Source of the DNA: Candidatus Tenderia electrophaga
GTDB lineage: Bacteria > Pseudomonadota > Gammaproteobacteria > Tenderiales > Tenderiaceae
Direction: 5' to 3'
Length of the DNA: 64,000 nucleotides
Assembly (NCBI GenBank): GCA_001447805.1
Contig: CP013099.1
Coordinates: 1,798,001-1,862,000, forward strand
The notes below the pieces were generated by a model. The model made no database searches, was not told the origin of the DNA, and worked only from the letters and a program-made list of their open reading frames with translations. Positions 43,246 to 63,748 of the stretch are shown in pieces (positions within the stretch are counted from its first letter, which is position 1; every line of letters begins with the position of its first letter). The position numbers and the translations under genes were made by a program.

Positions 43246-43357
43246 AAATCCCCCCTAGCCCCCCTTTTGCAAAGGGGGGAACAAGGGGGCAGGCGAATAG
43301 CGCGGGAGCACCCCCGAAGCATCCCCCCCTTTGCAAAAGGGGGGCTAGGGGGGATTT
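43246..43357. repeat. 112-bp palindromic element with 34-bp perfect inverted repeats (MITE-like)
   Basis: Left arm 43246-43279 and right arm 43324-43357 are exact reverse complements over 34 bp; each begins AAATCCCCCCTAGCCCCCC when read from outside. A 44-bp centre separates them, and each arm itself holds a small C6-TTT(T)GCAAA-G6 hairpin. No ORF of its own is supported. Related pieces occur at 50994-51177. It lies between the DAHP synthase gene and tyrA; such elements in an operon can affect mRNA stability or termination. Confidence 0.85.
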
Positions 43358-43542
43358 ATAAACTAGCGGGGATTTATAAACTAGCGGGGATTTATAAACT
43401 AGCGGGGATTTATAAACTAGCGGGGATTTATAAACTAGCGGGGATTTATAAACTAGCGGGGATTTATAAACTAGCGGGGATTTATAAACTAGCGGGGATT
43501 TATAAACTAGCGGGGATTTATAAACCAGAGGCGATTCATAAA
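43345..43542 (+). repeat. 18-bp tandem array upstream of tyrA (11 units)
   Basis: Unit CTAGCGGGGATTTATAAA. The first copy (43345-43362) is CTAGGGGGGATTTATAAA, i.e. it overlaps the right arm of the palindromic element. Nine identical copies follow (43363-43524), then a diverged copy (43525-43542). The array therefore seems to have grown from the element's end. The unit is a multiple of three, so the stretch is open in several frames (IYKLAG repeats), but it is not a gene. It ends 14 bp before the tyrA ATG, at its Shine-Dalgarno. Confidence 0.93.
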
Positions 43543-53514: not shown

Positions 53515-53543
53515 TTTACATGCTTGATTTTCCTATCTAGAAT
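53515..53543 (+). promoter_or_regulatory. Sigma70-type promoter of the polysaccharide cluster
   Basis: TTTACA (53515-53520), 17-bp spacer, TAGAAT (53538-53543). Close to consensus. A start near 53550 gives a leader of about 300 nt that contains the ops element and the tandem array. Confidence 0.6.
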
Positions 53544-53706
53544 GGGTTTTTGTTCACTGGCTGAACAGAATGATTGCGCCTATTGGTACGCACTGTATGT
53601 CGATATATCGTGTTGTCGGCTTTTAGTGTGCAGTTGTCAGTAGTCAGGGGTTACCAACTGAAACCTTGATTCTGGATTATGTTGAACCTGATTTGGGGTG
53701 AAGCAG

Positions 53707-53718
53707 GGCGGTAGCGTG
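53707..53718 (+). promoter_or_regulatory. ops element (RfaH recruitment site, JUMPstart core)
   Basis: GGCGGTAGCGTG matches the E. coli ops sequence exactly, preceded by AAGCAGG, which resembles the 3' part of JUMPstart, and followed by CC and a T5 run. It lies about 160 nt inside the predicted transcript and 480 bp upstream of the rfaH-like gene. Confidence 0.88.
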
Positions 53719-53771
53719 CCTTTTTGAGCTGTTTCTTTAATTAGTGGGTTACCGACTACCGTTTACTGACA

Positions 53772-53843
53772 CTACTGACCCTACTGACCCTACTGACCCT
53801 ACTGACCCTACTGACCCTACTGACCCTACTGACCCTACTGACC
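53772..53843 (+). repeat. 9-bp tandem array CTACTGACC x8
   Basis: Eight identical units, with degenerate copies just before (TTTACTGACA) and after. It ends 10 bp before the TTG start of the regulator. GTCAGTAG, an inverted copy of the unit core, lies at 53637-53644. The spacer 53464-53853 contains no gene besides the promoter, ops and this array. Confidence 0.93.
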
Positions 53844-53853
53844 CACTGTTACT

Positions 53854-54201
53854 TTGATCTTAAACGACGAAACTCGCTATCAACTGCTCAAATTACTCGA
53901 GCAGAACCCGAATCTCACACAACGCGCATTGGCTAGTGAGTTGGGGATCAGTCTAGGCAAAACAAATTACTGTCTTAATGCCCTGATAGAAAAGGGTTGG
54001 ATTAAAACGCGTAATTTTCGCCGCAATAAAAAAAAGTTAGGTTATGTCTATTTGTTGACGACCAAAGGACTTGATGAAAAAGCACGTATGACATTAAAGT
54101 TTCTGCGCCTCAAGCAACAGGAATATGATGAACTAGTTAAAGAAATCGAAGCACTTCGTGAAGAAGCCGCTTTGATCAATTTAGCTGAGGAGGGGGAATG
54201 A
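53854..54201 (+). CDS. EPS-associated MarR-type transcriptional regulator
   Basis: 115 residues: winged helix (about 8-70; RYQLLKLLEQNPNLTQRALASELGIS, then NYCLNALIEKGWIKTRNF) and a C-terminal coiled coil (about 75-110). Matches the MarR-family EPS-associated regulators found at the head of exopolysaccharide clusters. The start is TTG 53854, with no Shine-Dalgarno and the 9-bp array directly upstream, so translation may be weak or controlled. ATGA overlap with the rfaH-like gene suggests coupling. Confidence 0.85.
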   Translation: MILNDETRYQLLKLLEQNPNLTQRALASELGISLGKTNYCLNALIEKGWIKTRNFRRNKKKLGYVYLLTTKGLDEKARMTLKFLRLKQQEYDELVKEIEALREEAALINLAEEGE

Positions 54202-54722
54202 TAGAAGCACATCAGCAATGGTTTGTAGTTCAAACCAAGCCACGTAAAGAGTCAGTGGCTTCAGAAAATCTGGAGCGGCAGGGTTACACAGCCTACTGCC
54301 CCAAAATAACCATATCTAAACGTCGCAAGCAGCGTTGGTGTCAAATCGTCGAGCCCCTGTTTCCTCGTTATCTGTTTGTTAAGCTCGAAGTAGGTGAGGA
54401 TGATTTTTCTCCCATCCGTTCGACACTAGGTGTTCAGAACTTGGTTCGATTCGGTGAAAAAACTGCAGTTATGCCGGAACAAGTGATTGAAGCAATCAGG
54501 TCGCAGGAGCATTGCTTTTTGGATCAGTGTGCAAATCATCCTGATTGGAAAGCTGGCGATACTGTTGAAATTATAGAAGGGCCCTTTGCAGGCCTTAAAG
54601 GTGTTTTTCAAACCAAAAATGGAGAAGAACGGGCCATTGTGTTGCTGAAATTACTCGGGCGCGATAGCTGTGTATCAGTAAATGTGGATACGTTAGCTTC
54701 CCGACCTACCCACGAAAAGTAG
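54198..54722 (+). CDS. rfaH: RfaH-like transcription antiterminator (NusG paralogue)
   Basis: 174 residues: an N-terminal NusG/NGN domain (about 6-105; WFVVQTKPRKE, LERQGYTAYCPKI, PLFPRYLFVKL, LGVQNLVRFG) and a KOW C-terminal domain (about 120-165; AGDTVEIIEGPFAGLKGVF). The sequence WFVVQTKPR and the CPK region are RfaH-like rather than housekeeping NusG. RfaH binds ops in paused transcription complexes and suppresses termination in long polysaccharide operons; an ops element lies 0.48 kb upstream. The last residues (about 170-174) and the TAG stop come from the left inverted repeat of the inserted IS. Confidence 0.9.
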   Translation: MIEAHQQWFVVQTKPRKESVASENLERQGYTAYCPKITISKRRKQRWCQIVEPLFPRYLFVKLEVGEDDFSPIRSTLGVQNLVRFGEKTAVMPEQVIEAIRSQEHCFLDQCANHPDWKAGDTVEIIEGPFAGLKGVFQTKNGEERAIVLLKLLGRDSCVSVNVDTLASRPTHEK

Positions 54723-54750
54723 ACACACATCATTAATGCAATAATATCTA

Positions 54751-55074
54751 ATGAGACGTGTCACTATGGCTAGAATGAAAACCAACGCATATTCTGAAGC
54801 ATTCCGTAAAGAGGCGGTTCGTCTTGCAAACCTGCCAGACCGAACAGCCACCGATGTAGCCAAAGAGCTGGGGATTCATCCCGGGCAAATCTACAACTGG
54901 CGGACTCAATTCAGTAAGCTATCCAAGGGTCAATTCAAAAAGGTGGATGGTGTGGACTATTCAAAAGAAGAAGCCGAGGAGATTCGTCGGCTGAAAAAGG
55001 AAGTCTCCAAACTCAAAGAGGAGCGTGACTTCCTAAAAAAAGCGACGGCGTACTTTGCCAAGGAAGACAAGTAA
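54751..55074 (+). CDS. IS3-family transposase OrfA
   Basis: 107 residues: an N-terminal helix-turn-helix (YSEAFRKEAVRLAN, VAKELGIHPGQIYNWRTQF) and a leucine-zipper-like coiled coil (EIRRLKKEVSKLKEERDFLKK). Binds the element's ends. ATG 54751 and 54766 are both possible starts. It ends with an A7 frameshift signal before its stop. Confidence 0.9.
   Translation: MRRVTMARMKTNAYSEAFRKEAVRLANLPDRTATDVAKELGIHPGQIYNWRTQFSKLSKGQFKKVDGVDYSKEEAEEIRRLKKEVSKLKEERDFLKKATAYFAKEDK
55035..55041 (+). promoter_or_regulatory. Programmed -1 frameshift site of the IS3 element
   Basis: A run of seven A (CTA AAA AAA GCG in the orfA frame) allows slippage to the orfB frame, giving the fused reading KYALIQSLRDEFHIN just before orfB's first Met. 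IS3-family elements use such A-rich sites to make the OrfAB transposase. Confidence 0.75.
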
Positions 55075-55118
55075 AGTACGCCCTAATCCAGTCATTACGT
55101 GACGAATTCCACATCAAT

Positions 55119-55955
55119 ATGATGTGTCAGTTGCTGGGGGTGTCCCGTTCTGGATACTATGCCTGGTTAAAACGCCCGGTCAGCCAACGCCGACAACGCA
55201 GAGATTTGGTGTGCGATGCCGTTGAAGCCACCTATCATGGCTTCAAGCGACGCTATGGTGCCCCCAGGCTTACCGTAGAGCTGAACGAACAGGGAATCGA
55301 CTGCAGCCTGAATCATGTCGCCATGCTACTCAAGGAAAAAGGCCTCAGGGCTCGAAATGGCAAAGGCTTCAAATACCGTGCGCGCATTGAATCCAAAACC
55401 AATGTCAGCGACAACCTGCTGGGGCGGCGATTTGAGACGAATGCACCCAACCGGAAATGGGTGTCAGATATCACCTATATCAAGGTGGGTAGAGTCTGGG
55501 TTTATTTAGCAGTTGTGCTGGACCTGTATTCACGCAGAGTCATTGGCTGGGCACTGGATACGCATATGCGCGAGGGGCTTATTTTGGAGGCCTTTAATAT
55601 GGCCGTGTCCAGGCGAGACATTCAGGGTAATCTAATGCTGCACTCAGATCGAGGCGTACAGTACCGCGGGCATGAGTATCAGGCGGCTCTGGAAGAGAAC
55701 GGTGTGCGGTGCAGCATGAGCCGCAAAGGTGACTGCTGGGACAATGCTGTGATGGAGTCATTCTTCAGTCGTTTGAAGGTTGAGCTCGTTTAAGCGGAGA
55801 ATTACACAAATGTTGAAGAAGCCAGGGCAGGAATCTTCGAATATATTGAGCTGTTCTATAATCGAGTCAGACGGCATTCCGCCATTGGTTATACCAGTCC
55901 GGTTGAATATGAACAGAAATTTAAGAATTTTACCGTGTCCACTATTCGTGGGTAG
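55119..55955 (+). pseudogene. IS3-family transposase OrfB, interrupted by a nonsense codon
   Basis: rve/DDE integrase-type domain. Catalytic residues visible: Asp in WVSDITYI, Asp in HSDRGVQYR and Glu in AVMESFFSRLK. An in-frame TAA at 55791-55793 stands where relatives have Tyr (ELV-stop-AENYTNVEEAR); the same frame then stays open for 53 more codons to TAG at the IS end. Translation from the first ATG gives 224 residues with the triad but no C-terminal piece. The element is probably inactive unless readthrough or complementation occurs. Confidence 0.88.
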
Positions 55956-56079
55956 GACCACTTCGTAATAACGGAACGGTAGTTAACAACATACAAGTGA
56001 AGAGAAAATATAGTAATACACATTTTAGGTTATACACTGATTTGCCTAATTCTTCTGAGGAGTCAGTGAAAGGATATGT

Positions 56080-57876
56080 GTGGTGTATTACCTCTTTAAC
56101 TCAACTGGTTGTCATAAAGTGAAACTTTCTCCTCTTCTCAAAAGATTATGGGTTCATGTTGCGCCGCGTCGGCGTAAACAACTCGGACTGTTATTTGCTC
56201 TTGTGGTTATTACGTCTTTTACAGAAGTGGTGGCTATTGGCGCGGTTCTACCTTTTTTAGCAGTTCTTTCTAAACCAGAGACAGTATTTTCACATGAGCT
56301 GGCTCAACCTTTAATTAAAGTTTTAGAGTTAACTGCGCCACAGCAACTTGTATTACCTATTACAGTTATTTTTGCCCTGGCTGCTGTTGTATCGGGAGTG
56401 ATGCGAATCGCAATGCTTTGGGGGCAGGCACGGCTTGGGCAAGCTATAGGCGCCGATCTCAGCTATCAAGTTTATCGCCGCACTTTATTCCAGCCTTACT
56501 CTGTTCATGTTGCACGTAATAGTAGTGAAGTTATTGCTGCAGTTACAAGTAAAACTAATCAGGTTGTTGCTGGGATTGTCTTGCCAGTATTAATGATGAC
56601 TGGTTCCGTATTGCTTATGGTGGCAATTTTGGCGACGTTAATTTCTATCAGTCCTATAATAGCATTGAGTGGAATATTAGGTTTTGGAACGATTTATGGG
56701 GTAATAGTCTGGGTGACCAAGAAAAGACTGTTGATCTACAGTCATCGTATTAGTGATGGGGGTAATCAAGTTGTAAAGATTGTACAGGAGGGGTTAGGAG
56801 GAATTAGGGATATACTCATCGATGGTGCTCAATCCACATACTGTAAATCGTTTCGTACGGTTGATGTGTCAATGCGGCGCGCTCAAGCTAATAGCCAAGT
56901 TATTAGTTTGACTCCTCGTTATGGCATTGAATCGTTAAGTATGGTGCTAATAGCAGTAATCGCTTTCAGTTTGGTTGGAAGCAGTGGTGGATTGATAGAC
57001 GTGCTTCCGGTTTTAGGGGCTTTTGTTGTGGGAGCTCAACGTCTTCTGCCTGCCCTGCAGTTGATCTATGCTAATTTGTCTTCAATGCGAACCGCTCAGA
57101 TTGTATTGGTAGATATTTTGAGTTTAATTGAACAGCCGCTGCCCAATTATACGGGTGCTTTTGCGCAACCACCGTTATCTTTTGAGCGTAGTATTAAAAT
57201 AAATGACCTTGGTTTTCGTTATGCTTCAGACGCACCATGGGTACTGCGCGGCCTAAATATTGAAATACGTAAAGGTAGTAGGGTCGGTTTTATAGGCTCC
57301 ACTGGTAGTGGAAAAAGCACATTGCTTGATATTGTCATGGGGTTACTCCACCCGGTAACAGGAACGTTAACTATTGATGACAAACCAATAACAGAGGAAA
57401 ATTATCGAAGTTGGCAAGCGCATATTGCACATGTTCCGCAGGCAATTTTCCTGTCAGATGCAACAATTGCTGAAAATATTGCATTCGGGGTTCCTGTAGA
57501 GCAGATTGATCTTGAGCGCGTTTGTCAGGCTGCTAGACAAGCTCAGATAGCTGAAACAATCGAATCTTGGAAGTCACAATACGAGACAATTGTTGGTGAA
57601 AGAGGAATGCGCCTTTCCGGTGGGCAGCGTCAGCGAATAGGTATAGCACGTGCGCTTTATAAGCAAGCTGATGTTATCGTATTTGATGAAGCCACGAGTG
57701 CTTTGGATAATGAGACCGAGCAGGCTGTTATGGATACTATTGATAATATTGCTGGAGAAACCACCATTCTTATCGTGGCCCATCGATTAACGACTCTTAA
57801 GAAATGTGATCAGGTAGTTGAATTGGAAAATGGCACGATTAAACGATTCGGAGTGTATGAGGATATTGTTGCATAA
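56080..57876 (+). CDS. Polysaccharide-type ABC exporter (permease-ATPase fusion)
   Basis: 598 residues: six membrane helices (about 25-330, with LLKRLWVHVAPRRRKQLG and FTEVVAIGAVLPFLA as in PglK/MsbA-like sugar exporters) and a C-terminal ATPase (Walker A GSTGSGKST, about 410; signature LSGGQRQR; Walker B VIVFDEATSALD). Probably flips or exports a lipid-linked glycan. GTG 56080 with AAAGGA 4 bp upstream is the likely start. It is the first gene after the IS, so its transcription must cross the element or begin in the spacer 55956-56079. Confidence 0.85.
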   Translation: MVYYLFNSTGCHKVKLSPLLKRLWVHVAPRRRKQLGLLFALVVITSFTEVVAIGAVLPFLAVLSKPETVFSHELAQPLIKVLELTAPQQLVLPITVIFALAAVVSGVMRIAMLWGQARLGQAIGADLSYQVYRRTLFQPYSVHVARNSSEVIAAVTSKTNQVVAGIVLPVLMMTGSVLLMVAILATLISISPIIALSGILGFGTIYGVIVWVTKKRLLIYSHRISDGGNQVVKIVQEGLGGIRDILIDGAQSTYCKSFRTVDVSMRRAQANSQVISLTPRYGIESLSMVLIAVIAFSLVGSSGGLIDVLPVLGAFVVGAQRLLPALQLIYANLSSMRTAQIVLVDILSLIEQPLPNYTGAFAQPPLSFERSIKINDLGFRYASDAPWVLRGLNIEIRKGSRVGFIGSTGSGKSTLLDIVMGLLHPVTGTLTIDDKPITEENYRSWQAHIAHVPQAIFLSDATIAENIAFGVPVEQIDLERVCQAARQAQIAETIESWKSQYETIVGERGMRLSGGQRQRIGIARALYKQADVIVFDEATSALDNETEQAVMDTIDNIAGETTILIVAHRLTTLKKCDQVVELENGTIKRFGVYEDIVA

Positions 57877-57944
57877 TTATTTATCCTTTGTTTGGCGATA
57901 GATTTAATTTGGCTGATTAATAATGTTCTGGAACTTTTTAAATT

Positions 57945-59153
57945 ATGATCCCATATGGTAAGCATTATTTAGACGAAGATGATATTGAGTCGGTAGTGAA
58001 AGTGCTACGCGAAGGGAGGCTAACACAGGGGCCTAAGGTGGCAGAGTTTGAGCAAGCAGTTGCCGATTATACTGGAGCGACGTTTGCTGTTGCTGTTTCG
58101 AGCGGAACTGCCGGATTGCATTTAGCGTGCATTGCAGCCGGTATAACATCAGGATGTCATGTTTACACCACAGCCAATACATTTGTTGCAAGCGCGAATA
58201 GTATTCTTTATGCAGGGGGACAACCGAATTTTTGTGATATTGATCCAGAGACACTAAATATGTCAACGGGTTACCTTGAAGAAAAGCTACAATCTACCCG
58301 TAAGCTTGATGGAATTATTCCAGTCCACTTCGCAGGATTGCCATGTGATATGGTAAAAATATGTGAAATTGCAGATTCATATGATGCCCCCGTTATTGAG
58401 GATGCGGCGCATGCATTTGGTGCTACTTACCCAGAAGGGGGGCGGGTAGGAAATTGTCAATATTCTGATATGACAGTTTTTTCTCTACACCCTGTTAAAG
58501 GGGTTACATCAGGAGAAGGCGGTGTAATTACAACTAACAATGAAAAAATATATCGTAAATTACTGCGTCTAAGGAGTCATGGTATTTGTAAAGGAAATTT
58601 CGACCTGCCTGGTGTGAGTGTTGCAGATAGTGATGTGCTGTATTATCCAGATGACGCTCTTTATGATGGGAAGCTTAATCCGTGGTATTACGAGATGCAA
58701 GAGCTTGGGTTTAATTATAGGCTTACAGACTTCCAATCTGCACTTGTCCTATCTCAACTAAAGAAAGCAGAGCCTTTTTTAGCCAGAAGAAAAGAAATAG
58801 CTGCAATGTATGATGAGCTTTTCGAAGGAGTAGATAGCATCACGGTTAAGCAGAAGCATGATAGATACAATACGTCACTGCATTTGTATGTATTAGAGAT
58901 AGATTTTGAGAAAGTTGGCCGTGCTAGAGGCCAGGTTATGAGAGATCTATTCGAGAAAAACATAGGTACACAAGTTCACTACATCCCAGTTCCTTTTCAG
59001 CCATATTATGCGAAGCTAGGTTTTAAGAGGGAAGACTACCCTGTTACTCAGTCATATTACAATAAGGCTTTGTCTATCCCGATATATTATGGGTTGACAG
59101 ATGATCAAGTGAAGTTTGTGGCAGATGAAATTATAGACATTGTTTTGGCATAG
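57945..59153 (+). CDS. pseC: UDP-4-amino-4,6-dideoxy-N-acetyl-L-altrosamine transaminase
   Basis: DegT/DnrJ/EryC1-type PLP aminotransferase of 402 residues: GRLTQGPKVAEFE, VAVSSGTAGLHLAC, VIEDAAHAFGA and the PLP-Lys site FSLHPVKGVTSGEGG. This second step of pseudaminic acid synthesis acts on the PseB product; sequence and neighbour pseG support PseC over other sugar transaminases. The expected pseB is not upstream in the window. Confidence 0.88.
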   Translation: MIPYGKHYLDEDDIESVVKVLREGRLTQGPKVAEFEQAVADYTGATFAVAVSSGTAGLHLACIAAGITSGCHVYTTANTFVASANSILYAGGQPNFCDIDPETLNMSTGYLEEKLQSTRKLDGIIPVHFAGLPCDMVKICEIADSYDAPVIEDAAHAFGATYPEGGRVGNCQYSDMTVFSLHPVKGVTSGEGGVITTNNEKIYRKLLRLRSHGICKGNFDLPGVSVADSDVLYYPDDALYDGKLNPWYYEMQELGFNYRLTDFQSALVLSQLKKAEPFLARRKEIAAMYDELFEGVDSITVKQKHDRYNTSLHLYVLEIDFEKVGRARGQVMRDLFEKNIGTQVHYIPVPFQPYYAKLGFKREDYPVTQSYYNKALSIPIYYGLTDDQVKFVADEIIDIVLA

Positions 59154-59225
59154 TTCTTTCCTAAGGTAGTCAATCGGTTGAGGGGCTTATTTGATTTGTG
59201 AGGTTCTTGTGTATGAGTGATAGGA

Positions 59226-59774
59226 ATGGCTCTTATTAGATTAATAACTGAGCGGCTAATTCTGCGCGCTATGACAGTCGATGGTGTTTCTTTAGAGTAT
59301 GTCTCTTGGCTTAACGATCCTGAAGTTAACCGTTACTTAGAGTCTCGTTTTATTGAGCATAATTTCGAAGACGTTGCAGGATTTGTGAGGCGCTTGCAGG
59401 CGGATGATTCCACGATATTTTTAGGTATATACCTTAAAGATAGCGACAAACATATAGGAAATATCAAGCTTGATTCAATTGACTCATACCATAGCCGGGG
59501 CATCGTCGGTCTAATGCTGGGTGATAAACAAGAGTGGGGGAAGGGGTTCGCGACCGAAGCTATACGCGAAATAACTAAATATGCTTTTAATGAATTAGGG
59601 TTAAAGAAAGTTTCTGCAGGTTGTTACGAGAGCAATCTTGGGTCAAAAAAGGCTTTTGAACGAGTTGGTTATGAGGTTGAAGGTTTTTTAAAGAGTCATG
59701 TAGAAACGGGCTCAGGAAGAGAAGGTTTGTGGCAGTTGGGAATGCTATCGGATAGTTTTCGCCTTGAAAAATAA
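59226..59774 (+). CDS. GNAT-family N-acetyltransferase (RimJ/RimL type)
   Basis: 182 residues: ITERLILRAM start, VSWLNDPEVNRYLESRF, acetyl-CoA loop KQEWGKGFATEAI, and a C-terminal NLGSKKAFERVGYEVEGFLKSHVE. In this setting it may N- or O-acetylate a sugar intermediate. ATG 59226 or GTG 59217 start. Its end overlaps the next gene by 11 bp. Confidence 0.82.
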   Translation: MALIRLITERLILRAMTVDGVSLEYVSWLNDPEVNRYLESRFIEHNFEDVAGFVRRLQADDSTIFLGIYLKDSDKHIGNIKLDSIDSYHSRGIVGLMLGDKQEWGKGFATEAIREITKYAFNELGLKKVSAGCYESNLGSKKAFERVGYEVEGFLKSHVETGSGREGLWQLGMLSDSFRLEK

Positions 59775-60654
59775 GATTGCATTAGGCACTGTCCAGTTTG
59801 GTATGGCCTATGGTGTATCTAACACATCCGGGCAAACTAATCTTAATGAAGTAGAGGAAATTCTAACTTATGCTTTTTCCCATGGCATTAGTACTTTAGA
59901 CACTGCTATGGCTTATGGCTCTTCTGAAGAGATTCTTGGGAGCACCATTCATCAATGTGGTGATAATTGGGAAATTGTCACTAAGACCCCTCACTTTAAG
60001 TCAGCAGAAATTACTCAAAAAGACTTAGATACGCTTAAGGCAAGTCTTGATAACTCGCGTGAGAAGCTTGGGAAGTCGAGCCTGTATGGGTTGCTTGTCC
60101 ATGCATGTGACGATTTGTTTAAGCCAGGTGGGTGGCGGTTGATTAGTTGTATGGAGAAGCTTAAAGATCAGGGGCTGGTTAATAAAGTTGGTGTCTCTTT
60201 GTATTGTAGCGGGCAAATAGACAAGCTTTTGGAGTGCTGTTCTATCGATTTGGTTCAATTGCCATTGAATATTTTAGACCAGCGTTTGATTGAGAGTGGT
60301 CACTTGACTAAGTTGAAAAATAAAAATATTGAGATACATGCGAGAAGTGCTTTTTTACAAGGCCTGCTGCTTATGCCATTGGATAAAATTGACTCATGGT
60401 TTTCACCCATTAGAAATATGCTTTCAGGGTTCCACCAGGCGGCACTAGATAGAGATATAACTGTTTTACAGCTTGCTTTGGGTTTTGTCTCTAATATTAA
60501 AGAAGTCGATAAGGTCGTTGTGGGTGTGAATAATTTAGATCAACTACGAGAGATTGTCGCAGCCACTGATATTAATATTGATGTGGTTGATTTTAAGTTT
60601 CTTTCTGTTAGAGATCCGGCATTTATAAATCCCTCTAAGTGGAAGTTGAAGTGA
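59764..60654 (+). CDS. Aldo/keto reductase
   Basis: 296 residues: IALGTVQFGMAYGVSN, LDTAMAYGSSEEILG (Asp/Tyr of the tetrad), VTKTP (Lys) and LLVHACDDL (His). TIM-barrel NADPH reductase acting on a sugar keto or aldehyde group is likely here, or a related dehydrogenase. TTG 59764 start (LKNKIALGT) overlaps the GNAT gene, and the stop overlaps the next gene GTGA. Confidence 0.85.
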   Translation: MKNKIALGTVQFGMAYGVSNTSGQTNLNEVEEILTYAFSHGISTLDTAMAYGSSEEILGSTIHQCGDNWEIVTKTPHFKSAEITQKDLDTLKASLDNSREKLGKSSLYGLLVHACDDLFKPGGWRLISCMEKLKDQGLVNKVGVSLYCSGQIDKLLECCSIDLVQLPLNILDQRLIESGHLTKLKNKNIEIHARSAFLQGLLLMPLDKIDSWFSPIRNMLSGFHQAALDRDITVLQLALGFVSNIKEVDKVVVGVNNLDQLREIVAATDINIDVVDFKFLSVRDPAFINPSKWKLK

Positions 60655-62678
60655 AAGTTGTAGCAATTATTCAAGCGCGCATCGGTTCAACTCGTTTGCC
60701 CAACAAGGTGATGAAAACTATCAATGGTGTGCCAATGATAGAGCTTTTGTTAAAGCGCTTATCTAAATCAAAAGAGGTCAATGAAATTGTAGTTGCTACC
60801 TCGGTAGATAAAAATAACCAACCTCTTGTAGAGCACGTAAAAAAATTAGGGTATTGTTGTGAGCAAGGCAGTGAGAATGATGTATTAGATAGATATGTGC
60901 AGGCAGCAAGAGCTCACGATGCTGATGTTGTGGTCCGTATCACAGGTGATTGCCCTTTAATCGATCCCGGCTTAATTGATAAATGTGTCCTAGAATTTAA
61001 AAAATATAATATCGATTATTTTTCAAATATTTTGCAGCCGACTTATCCAGACGGTTTGGATGTGGAAGTGATTAAAAGGGAGTCTCTTGAGTACGCATTA
61101 GAAGCAACGGATGAGATTTACGATCATGAACATGTAACACCCTTTATACGTGAATCAGGCCGCTTTAAGATATCCGGAGTGGTTAATGATGAAGATGTCT
61201 CTAATTTACGCTGGACTGTAGATGAGCCTGCTGACTTTGAAGTAGTAAGTAATGTTTTTGATCATTTCTGGCCTAACATTTATTTCGATTGGAAAGAAGT
61301 ATTGGGGCTTCAGCGCCGATCACCAGAATTATTTTCAGCGAATCAACAAATTCTTCGTAATCAAGGAGCAGCTATGGGTACCGGTCAGAAGTTGTGGCTA
61401 CGTGCCAAGCAAGTAATTCCTGGTGGCAACATGCTGCTTTCAAAGCGGGCTGAGATGTTTTTGCCTGAACAGTGGCCCGCTTATTATAGTAAGGCAAAGG
61501 GTTGCCATGTTTGGGACCTGGACGGAAAAGAATATATTGATATGAGTATCATGGGGGTTGGTACCAATATCTTGGGTTATGGGCATCCCGCGGTTGATGA
61601 AGCTGTGCTTGGGGCTGTTAAGGCCGGCAACATGTCCACACTTAACTGCTCTGAAGAGGTGTTTCTTGCGGAGAAATTGGTAGAACTTCACCCATGGGCT
61701 GATATGGTCCGCTTCGCCCGCTCAGGAGGAGAAGCGAATTCTATTGCAATACGCATTGCCCGCGCGGCTTCTGGAAGGGATAAAGTTGCTATTTGTGGGT
61801 ATCACGGCTGGCACGATTGGTATCTTTCTGCCAATTTGTCTGACGATAAAAACCTCGACGGGCATTTGCTTCCCGGTTTAGAGCCTAAGGGAGTCCCTCG
61901 TGACTTAAAGGGCTCAGTATTGCCATTTAGCTATAACAATTTTGAACAATTGGAAGAGCTAGTGATTAATAATGACATAGGTGTAATTAAGATGGAGGTC
62001 ATTCGTAATCAAGAACCCAAAGATGACTTTCTTCATAAGGTCAGAAAGCTGGCTACTGACAATGGTGTTGTGTTGATATTTGATGAGTGTACTTCAGGAT
62101 TTCGTGAGACATTTGGGGGGATACATAAAAAATATGGGGTGGAGCCAGATGTGGCGATTTTTGGTAAAGCCTTGGGTAATGGTTATGCTATTACAGCTGT
62201 AATAGGAAAACGCGATATTATGGAAGCAGCTCAGAGCACGTTTATTAGTAGTACATTTTGGACAGAGCGCATAGGCCCGTCAGCTGCATTAAAAGCCTTA
62301 GAGGTGATGGAGAAAACAAATTCATGGTGGAAAATTACTGAAACAGGTTTAACTATTAGTAGGTATTGGCAATCATTAGCTGATAAGTATGGGCTGTCCA
62401 TAACTCATTCTGGTATACCAGCACTAACCAGCTTTTCATTTAATAATAAAAATTCACTAGCATATAAAACATTAATAACACAGGAAATGTTATCCAAGGG
62501 CTACTTGGCTGGCACGAGCACTTATGTTTGTACGGAGCATGTTCCTGAAATCGTCAATGGGTATATTGAGGCTCTTGAATCTGTTTTTGAACTGATTGGA
62601 GACTGCGAAGAGGGGCGTGATGTGTATTCGCTACTTAAGGGGCCAGTATGTCATAGCGCTTTTAAGCGTTTAAACTAA
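60651..62678 (+). CDS. SpsF-like cytidylyltransferase fused to class III (glutamate-1-semialdehyde type) aminotransferase
   Basis: 675 residues, two domains. About 1-235 is an SpsF/CMP-sugar nucleotidyltransferase (VVAIIQARIGSTRLPNKVM, VRITGDCPLIDP, HEHVTPFI). About 250-675 is a fold-type I PLP aminotransferase (GYGHPAVDEAV, FARSGGEANSIAIRIAR, LIFDECTSGFRETFGG and the Lys site FGKALGNGYAITAV). GTG 60651 in a GTGA overlap with the aldo/keto reductase stop gives a family-like start; GTG 60639 is possible. The first domain may supply the CMP-activation step (PseF role); the second is unexplained. Confidence 0.85.
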   Translation: MKVVAIIQARIGSTRLPNKVMKTINGVPMIELLLKRLSKSKEVNEIVVATSVDKNNQPLVEHVKKLGYCCEQGSENDVLDRYVQAARAHDADVVVRITGDCPLIDPGLIDKCVLEFKKYNIDYFSNILQPTYPDGLDVEVIKRESLEYALEATDEIYDHEHVTPFIRESGRFKISGVVNDEDVSNLRWTVDEPADFEVVSNVFDHFWPNIYFDWKEVLGLQRRSPELFSANQQILRNQGAAMGTGQKLWLRAKQVIPGGNMLLSKRAEMFLPEQWPAYYSKAKGCHVWDLDGKEYIDMSIMGVGTNILGYGHPAVDEAVLGAVKAGNMSTLNCSEEVFLAEKLVELHPWADMVRFARSGGEANSIAIRIARAASGRDKVAICGYHGWHDWYLSANLSDDKNLDGHLLPGLEPKGVPRDLKGSVLPFSYNNFEQLEELVINNDIGVIKMEVIRNQEPKDDFLHKVRKLATDNGVVLIFDECTSGFRETFGGIHKKYGVEPDVAIFGKALGNGYAITAVIGKRDIMEAAQSTFISSTFWTERIGPSAALKALEVMEKTNSWWKITETGLTISRYWQSLADKYGLSITHSGIPALTSFSFNNKNSLAYKTLITQEMLSKGYLAGTSTYVCTEHVPEIVNGYIEALESVFELIGDCEEGRDVYSLLKGPVCHSAFKRLN

Positions 62679-63748
62679 TGCGAATAGTTTTTCGTGTGGA
62701 CTCTTCTGATGTTATAGGTGCTGGGCACATTATGCGATGTTTGGCATTGTCTGAAGCGCTATCAGCACGAGGAGAAACCTGTCATTTTATAGTTCGTTCC
62801 CATAGTGGTCATCTTGCATCGTATATAGAGGAGAAGGGTTATACAGTTTCACTCTTGGAGTTACCTAATACAGAGATTAAAGAGCTATCTGATACTGATT
62901 ACGCTGCCTGGCTTGGTGTCACTCAGGCTGATGATGCAGAAGAATGTATTGTTGCATTAAATGACGAACAAGCAGACTGGTTAATAGTAGATCATTATGC
63001 CTTGGATATTGTTTGGGAACAACAAATGCGGAGCCATTGTTGCAAATTAATGGTAATAGATGACTTGGCAAACAGAAAACACGAATGTGATTTATTGCTT
63101 GATCAAACGTATAAAAGAAGCAAAGAAAATTATTCGTCTCACGTTTCCAATGAATGCCAACTATTATGTGGCACAGAATATTCGCTGTTGAGAAGAGAAT
63201 TCCAACTTTGGCGTGATTTTAGCCTTTTAAGACGACAATCGAGAAAACTAAATAATATACTGGTAAACATGGGAGGTGTGGATAATGACAACCTCACATG
63301 TCAAGTGTTGCAGGTGCTACAAAATTGTCTTTTGCCAAAGGGTTGTTCTGTCACCATTGTAATGGGGTCGACTGCGCCTTGGGCTAGAGAGGTTAAGCGC
63401 ATAGCGGGTGTGTTGCCATTTACAGCAAATGTAAAAATTGGTGTAAACAATATGGCTGAGCTGATGGCTAATTGCGATCTGGCCATAGGGGCTGCGGGGT
63501 CAACCTCATGGGAGAGGTGCTGTTTGGGGTTGCCTACTATTCTGTTGGTTGTTGCTGAAAATCAACGTGAAATTGCACAGGCCTTGTCTACTGTAAGGGC
63601 AGTTCGATTTGTAGATAATATTGCTGATATTGCTAGTGAGATAAATAGTGCTTTAGATTGGATGGGTACGGCTAGTATAGAAAGCTCTAAAATTGTAGAT
63701 GGCTTTGGCGCGGATAGAGTTGCAGACTTAATCGTTGGCAATAACTAG
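62678..63748 (+). CDS. pseG: UDP-2,4-diacetamido-2,4,6-trideoxy-beta-L-altropyranose hydrolase
   Basis: GT-B-like UDP-sugar hydrolase of 356 residues that removes UDP in pseudaminic acid synthesis. Begins FRVDSSDVIGAGHIMRCLAL, then WLIVDHYALD, NMGGVDNDN and AIGAAGSTSWERCCLGLP. TAATG overlap with the preceding gene. In other species pseG and pseH are adjacent or fused; a GNAT gene follows here after 35 bp. Confidence 0.92.
   Translation: MRIVFRVDSSDVIGAGHIMRCLALSEALSARGETCHFIVRSHSGHLASYIEEKGYTVSLLELPNTEIKELSDTDYAAWLGVTQADDAEECIVALNDEQADWLIVDHYALDIVWEQQMRSHCCKLMVIDDLANRKHECDLLLDQTYKRSKENYSSHVSNECQLLCGTEYSLLRREFQLWRDFSLLRRQSRKLNNILVNMGGVDNDNLTCQVLQVLQNCLLPKGCSVTIVMGSTAPWAREVKRIAGVLPFTANVKIGVNNMAELMANCDLAIGAAGSTSWERCCLGLPTILLVVAENQREIAQALSTVRAVRFVDNIADIASEINSALDWMGTASIESSKIVDGFGADRVADLIVGNN

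Follow-up and report, generated by a model that had tools for sequence, protein, structure and literature searches.

Among the described systems, the closest to the locus presented here is that of Escherichia coli RfaH and its ops element (operon polarity suppressor, JUMPstart), with which it shares an RfaH-family protein, an exact ops core situated in a long leader and a surface-polysaccharide target. In E. coli, rfaH is located away from its target operons, whereas here one unit holds both the sole full ops and the sole rfaH of the genome, with rfaH behind ops. NusG paralogs encoded in the operons which they presumably serve are also represented by UpxY of the Bacteroides fragilis capsule operons, TaA and LoaP (PMC7593976, PMC7819879). 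These, however, are members of other NusG subfamilies, and neither ops nor a MarR_EPS partner is described for them in the portions of the two papers on which this comparison draws. In the case of the RfaHs of Shewanella exopolysaccharide operons (cluster CL7) and of the HTH-linked cluster CL4, rfaH adjoins polysaccharide genes, accompanied in CL4 by a gene for an HTH regulator (PMC7593976); MarR is not mentioned in the main text of that paper, and its section on gene neighbours gives neither an operator nor the order of rfaH and ops. The recruitment of antiterminators encoded inside their own operons is called unknown in the same paper. For the MarR_EPS family (TIGR04176) no functional paper, operator or mechanism was found in the literature searched.

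The window, as the whole analysed stretch of 64,000 nucleotides is called here, contains a 1.2-kb control segment heading a surface-polysaccharide cluster of ∼40 kb. The order on the + strand is a sigma70-type promoter, a palindrome, an exact ops, a 9-bp array, the MarR_EPS gene, rfaH, an IS3-family element and the polysaccharide genes:

53515-53543, + strand: sigma70-type promoter TTTACA-17-TAGAAT (-35/-10 pair), its spacing to the operator conserved in relatives
53552-53566, no strand assigned: putative MarR_EPS operator GTTCACTGGCTGAAC (GTTCA-N5-TGAAC), a 15-bp palindrome at about +1, 9 nt after the -10
53636-53643, + strand: 8-mer GTCAGTAG, complementary to every unit of the array
53707-53726, + strand: ops core GGCGGTAGCGTG (exact, 53707-53718) followed by CCTTTTTG, the predicted pause and RfaH loading site
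53764-53848, + strand: 9-bp tandem array, TACTGACCC x 9.6, C-rich and G-poor with evenly spaced YC dimers, a candidate Rho-loading (rut) site
53854-54201, + strand: MarR_EPS regulator gene (TIGR04176) with a TTG start, 147.6 bits against a curated cut-off of 88
54198-54722, + strand: rfaH (TIGR01955), 155.3 bits against a cut-off of 144.5, overlapping marR by ATGA, its last codons and stop inside the insertion element
54706-55955, + strand: IS3-family element of 1,250 bp with matching 11-bp ends CTACCCACGAA/TTCGTGGGTAG
54751-55074 and 55119-55793, + strand: IS3 transposase ORFs inside this element
56080-63748, + strand: start of the downstream surface-polysaccharide unit (ABC transporter, PseC, PseH-like protein, aldo/keto reductase, a 679-aa aminotransferase-containing protein, PseG)

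The promoter, the exact ops, the 9-bp array, the MarR_EPS gene and rfaH had been listed in the earlier note, and all of them were confirmed, arranged along one strand in the order given; the inventory was nevertheless incomplete, since both the operator palindrome and the insertion element had been overlooked. The same-strand gene run extends beyond the window to genome position ∼1,890,700, that is, ∼40 kb behind ops, with family searches covering the genes within the window. The 679-aa protein is encoded by a single ORF (60639-62678), of which residues 250-679 match glutamate-1-semialdehyde aminomutase-like aminotransferases and the N-terminal part matched none of the 25 families shown; it is possibly a fused sugar-biosynthesis enzyme. 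Elsewhere in the window (43345-43542) an 18-bp unit, CTAGCGGGGATTTATAAA, is repeated in tandem in 11 copies with 97% matches.

According to pattern searches and family searches, the 3.76-Mb genome harbours one RfaH, plus a weaker, 47-bit match which is presumably NusG, one MarR_EPS, one occurrence of GTTCA-N5-TGAAC and one full-length ops with its flank, the latter within the leader of rfaH itself. Hence, on neither side does the module find another full-length cognate partner in this genome. Both MarR_EPS and RfaH were absent from all six genomes of the same genus, all of them drafts (77-95% complete).

The ops core runs on as CCTTTTT, and the motif used to define ops, GGCGGTAGCNTN, occurs exactly in the predicted leader as a single full copy. 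The genome contains the 19-mer GGCGGTAGCGTGCNTTTTT once without mismatch, at the window site, the other matches differing at 3 positions. The Rfam JUMPstart model marks the same place weakly (17 bits versus a gathering score of 35). The other seven GGCGGTAGCNT sites were considered as a wider ops regulon and rejected, all being devoid of the extended motif. Among 369 sampled gammaproteobacterial genomes, with shared ancestry ignored in this and the following statistics, the 14-mer GGCGGTAGCGTG[C/T]C was present in 43 of the 78 genomes with RfaH and in 19 of the 291 without it (P = 3e-20), while the control, the ops core followed by GC or AC, showed no significant association with RfaH (P = 0.09). 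As for the sampled MarR_EPS loci, RfaH was found in 10 of 11 genomes with an ops in the leader versus 10 of 31 without (P = 0.001), and in all 15 MarR_EPS leaders having ops it is located downstream of the operator.

Beyond the E. coli type, the statement of the earlier note that rfaH as a rule lies apart from its target operons does not hold: in related bacteria rfaH commonly adjoins an ops site that heads other genes. At 25 sampled gammaproteobacterial loci where rfaH and the ops 14-mer lie within 3.3 kb of each other, the two always share a strand; rfaH precedes ops in 21 and follows it in four, namely the window locus, Thiohalophilus thiocyanatoxydans and two loci without MarR_EPS. In these bacteria rfaH is thus commonly linked to an ops site, and the distinguishing trait of the window locus is the position of rfaH behind ops. 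The ops-marR-rfaH order is shared by T. thiocyanatoxydans and by the uncultured gammaproteobacterium RI_92, the latter having the full operator-ops-marR-rfaH order. Two other arrangements were also seen. The succession of rfaH, a weaker MarR_EPS-like gene (an open frame of ∼200-250 aa) and ops is frequent in many gammaproteobacteria (loci L047-L070), and in a genome of the same family (G001, locus L135) an exact ops core, GGCGGTAGCGTGGC, is located 168 bp 3' of rfaH, the pair being without MarR_EPS.

The palindrome was first noticed when the window leader was compared with that of T. thiocyanatoxydans, the closest linked relative (RfaH 57% identical), as it is situated shortly after the -10 in both. 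GTTCA-N5-TGAAC is perfect at 36 of the 42 MarR_EPS loci of the class sample and at 73 of the 79 loci of another sample, drawn from named genomes; some genomes being common to the two samples, removal of duplicates leaves 103 of 114 distinct relatives (∼90%) in which it is found upstream of the MarR_EPS gene. Among these 114 leaders, each alternative spacer length from 0 to 4 and from 6 to 11 gave 0-1 match, and two rearranged operators gave none. Taken alone, TTTACA-17-TAGAAT is no more frequent in the region than chance predicts (2 sites versus 3.5 expected from shuffling); directly 5' of the operator, the -35/-10 pair is conserved, with a mean best score over 39 loci of 8.33 versus 6.37 ± 0.14 in shuffles, and for the window's own pair p = 0.003. 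T. thiocyanatoxydans has TTTACA-17-TACTAT at the corresponding place. Just 5' of that promoter (locus L088, 3000-3180) there are two 7-bp tandem arrays (AGGACTT and CAGAACT), unrelated in sequence to the array of the window.

The MarR_EPS protein of the window is a member of TIGR04176 by its score above the NCBIfam curated cut-off, and its gene heads a polysaccharide cluster; the region of the recognition helix is nearly invariant in MarR_EPS proteins. GTTCA-N5-TGAAC is thus very probably the operator through which MarR_EPS represses its own gene, autorepression at initiation being the natural reading of its position and conservation; no published description of this operator was found in the literature searched. 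With a near-universal operator at the start site, the module would hold a repressor loop besides the antiterminator loop.

Rho-loading sites are C-rich and G-poor, with regularly spaced YC dimers. In the 9-bp array, the copies of which are near-perfect, CC dimers recur every 9 nt, and a 78-nt stretch around it contains 32 C versus 9 G; by C minus G the array is at the 99.9th percentile and includes the maximum of a 60-kb region. RfaH works against Rho (PMC7593976), and by its composition the array is a plausible Rho-loading site. At 44 ops sites the stretch after ops is slightly C-richer than the one before (P = 4e-4, a small effect). The array was rejected as a member of a genome-wide repeat family, being unique in the genome, and as a conserved part of MarR_EPS leaders, since it is not conserved in relatives; it is therefore not essential to the general design. 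The leader folds better than shuffled sequences (z = -2.3), and GTCAGTAG could mask one array unit in the RNA. A search for intrinsic terminators yielded a single weak candidate, a number below that obtained from shuffled sequences.

The IS3-family element lies between rfaH and the polysaccharide genes and is flanked by a 3-bp duplication, GAC (54703-54705 and 55956-55958). It sits in the final codons of rfaH, supplying the last codons and the stop; as the RfaH proteins of relatives terminate near the same residue, the insertion has left the conserved domain intact. The element may be polar, or its promoters could feed the distal polysaccharide genes. The second transposase ORF reaches only profile position 329 of 369, with part of the element still to follow, and may therefore be decayed.

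The model which we consider reasonably probable is a two-loop, self-contained control of the ∼40-kb polysaccharide transcription unit, with MarR_EPS braking initiation and RfaH/ops driving elongation. It is built on the observed elements, their order, uniqueness and conservation, from which DNA binding, repression, Rho action, recruitment and feedback are inferred. Transcription would start at the sigma70-type promoter, where a MarR_EPS dimer bound to GTTCA-N5-TGAAC at the start site would block initiation until a signal releases it, closing a negative loop. A polymerase that escapes would pause at ops, ∼155 nt downstream, and there be loaded with RfaH, which would exclude NusG/Rho and couple the polymerase to ribosomes, allowing it to pass the C-rich array, marR, rfaH, the insertion element and the polysaccharide genes. 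With rfaH placed behind its own ops, each round of elongation would raise the amount of RfaH available for the next (a positive loop), and the 4-nt overlap of marR and rfaH (54198-54201) would keep the production of repressor and antiterminator linked. Since the only RfaH and the only full ops of the genome are arranged in this manner, self-antitermination, as suggested in the earlier note, is the natural prediction, and RfaH likely antiterminates its own synthesis. Against the model count the replacement of two ops-contacting residues, H20 and R73, which is however shared by linked relatives, the lack of conservation of the array, its candidate role in Rho loading being deduced from composition, and the possible supply of distal transcripts by promoters of the insertion element.

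Alternatively, the decisive control may be that of initiation by MarR_EPS, with RfaH serving the long operon only as a common processivity factor; its feedback on itself would then be negligible in quantity, given the shortness of marR-rfaH and its nearness to the promoter. Most MarR_EPS loci indeed keep the operator and have no ops in the leader, and the predominance of rfaH-first loci among the linked ones indicates that RfaH systems work without self-inclusion. However, the C-rich array is placed between ops and marR, so that early termination would affect rfaH itself, and the ops-marR-rfaH order has been found again in two other genomes; this explanation is regarded as rather unlikely.

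The properties of the RfaH protein bear on a further alternative. The protein exceeds the curated cut-off of TIGR01955 across the whole domain, while it remains under the cut-off of the UpxY model (NF033644; 90 bits versus 100) and far below that of LoaP. Compared with RfaH entries by structure, it comes closest to the fully recruited state. The side chains with which E. coli RfaH contacts ops are K10, H20, R23 and R73 (PMC5995543); of these, K10 and R23 are kept in the window protein, H20 is replaced by N and R73 by L, as is also the case in many relatives adjoining an exact ops. AlphaFold predicts an all-beta (beta-barrel) C-terminal domain. Both this prediction and the replaced H20 and R73 would suit an RfaH that is constitutively active (monomorphic) and recruited in cis during its own synthesis, ops being a mere pause or a remnant; constitutively active RfaHs beside their operons have been proposed in a 2026 preprint (PMC13015549). 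Yet all four residues of the interdomain (autoinhibitory) lock, E48, I93, F130 and R138, are kept, the ops is exact and single-copy, and a control relative 42% identical to E. coli RfaH, with the same alignment, is likewise predicted as beta, which means that the prediction does not separate fold-switching from constitutive proteins. Such a mode of action appears improbable. Finally, that changes in the number of array units alter expression, making the array a phase-variable switch, is very improbable: the copies are near-perfect, lie between ops and the start codon and can pair with the upstream 8-mer, but the array is not conserved and is outside the marR frame, a stop just before the TTG meaning that copy number cannot switch the reading frame, for which reason a coding or frame-switching repeat was also rejected.

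Tentatively, the self-contained two-loop control may be extended to a fully closed dual-feedback module, in which one repressor with one operator would govern initiation and one antiterminator with one ops elongation, both being products of the very transcript that they regulate, with bistable or pulsed polysaccharide expression as the outcome; MarR_EPS proteins across Proteobacteria would share GTTCA-N5-TGAAC as a common autoregulatory operator, and in RfaH-bearing species the cassette would often have ops in its leader or behind rfaH. With one antiterminator and one full ops, the window locus offers a compact natural case for the recruitment of an antiterminator encoded in its own operon. 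Of wider bearing are the putative MarR_EPS operator and its pairing with ops: being near-invariant, this operator gives a large uncharacterised family of exopolysaccharide regulators a testable DNA target and allows the regulon to be predicted in any genome.
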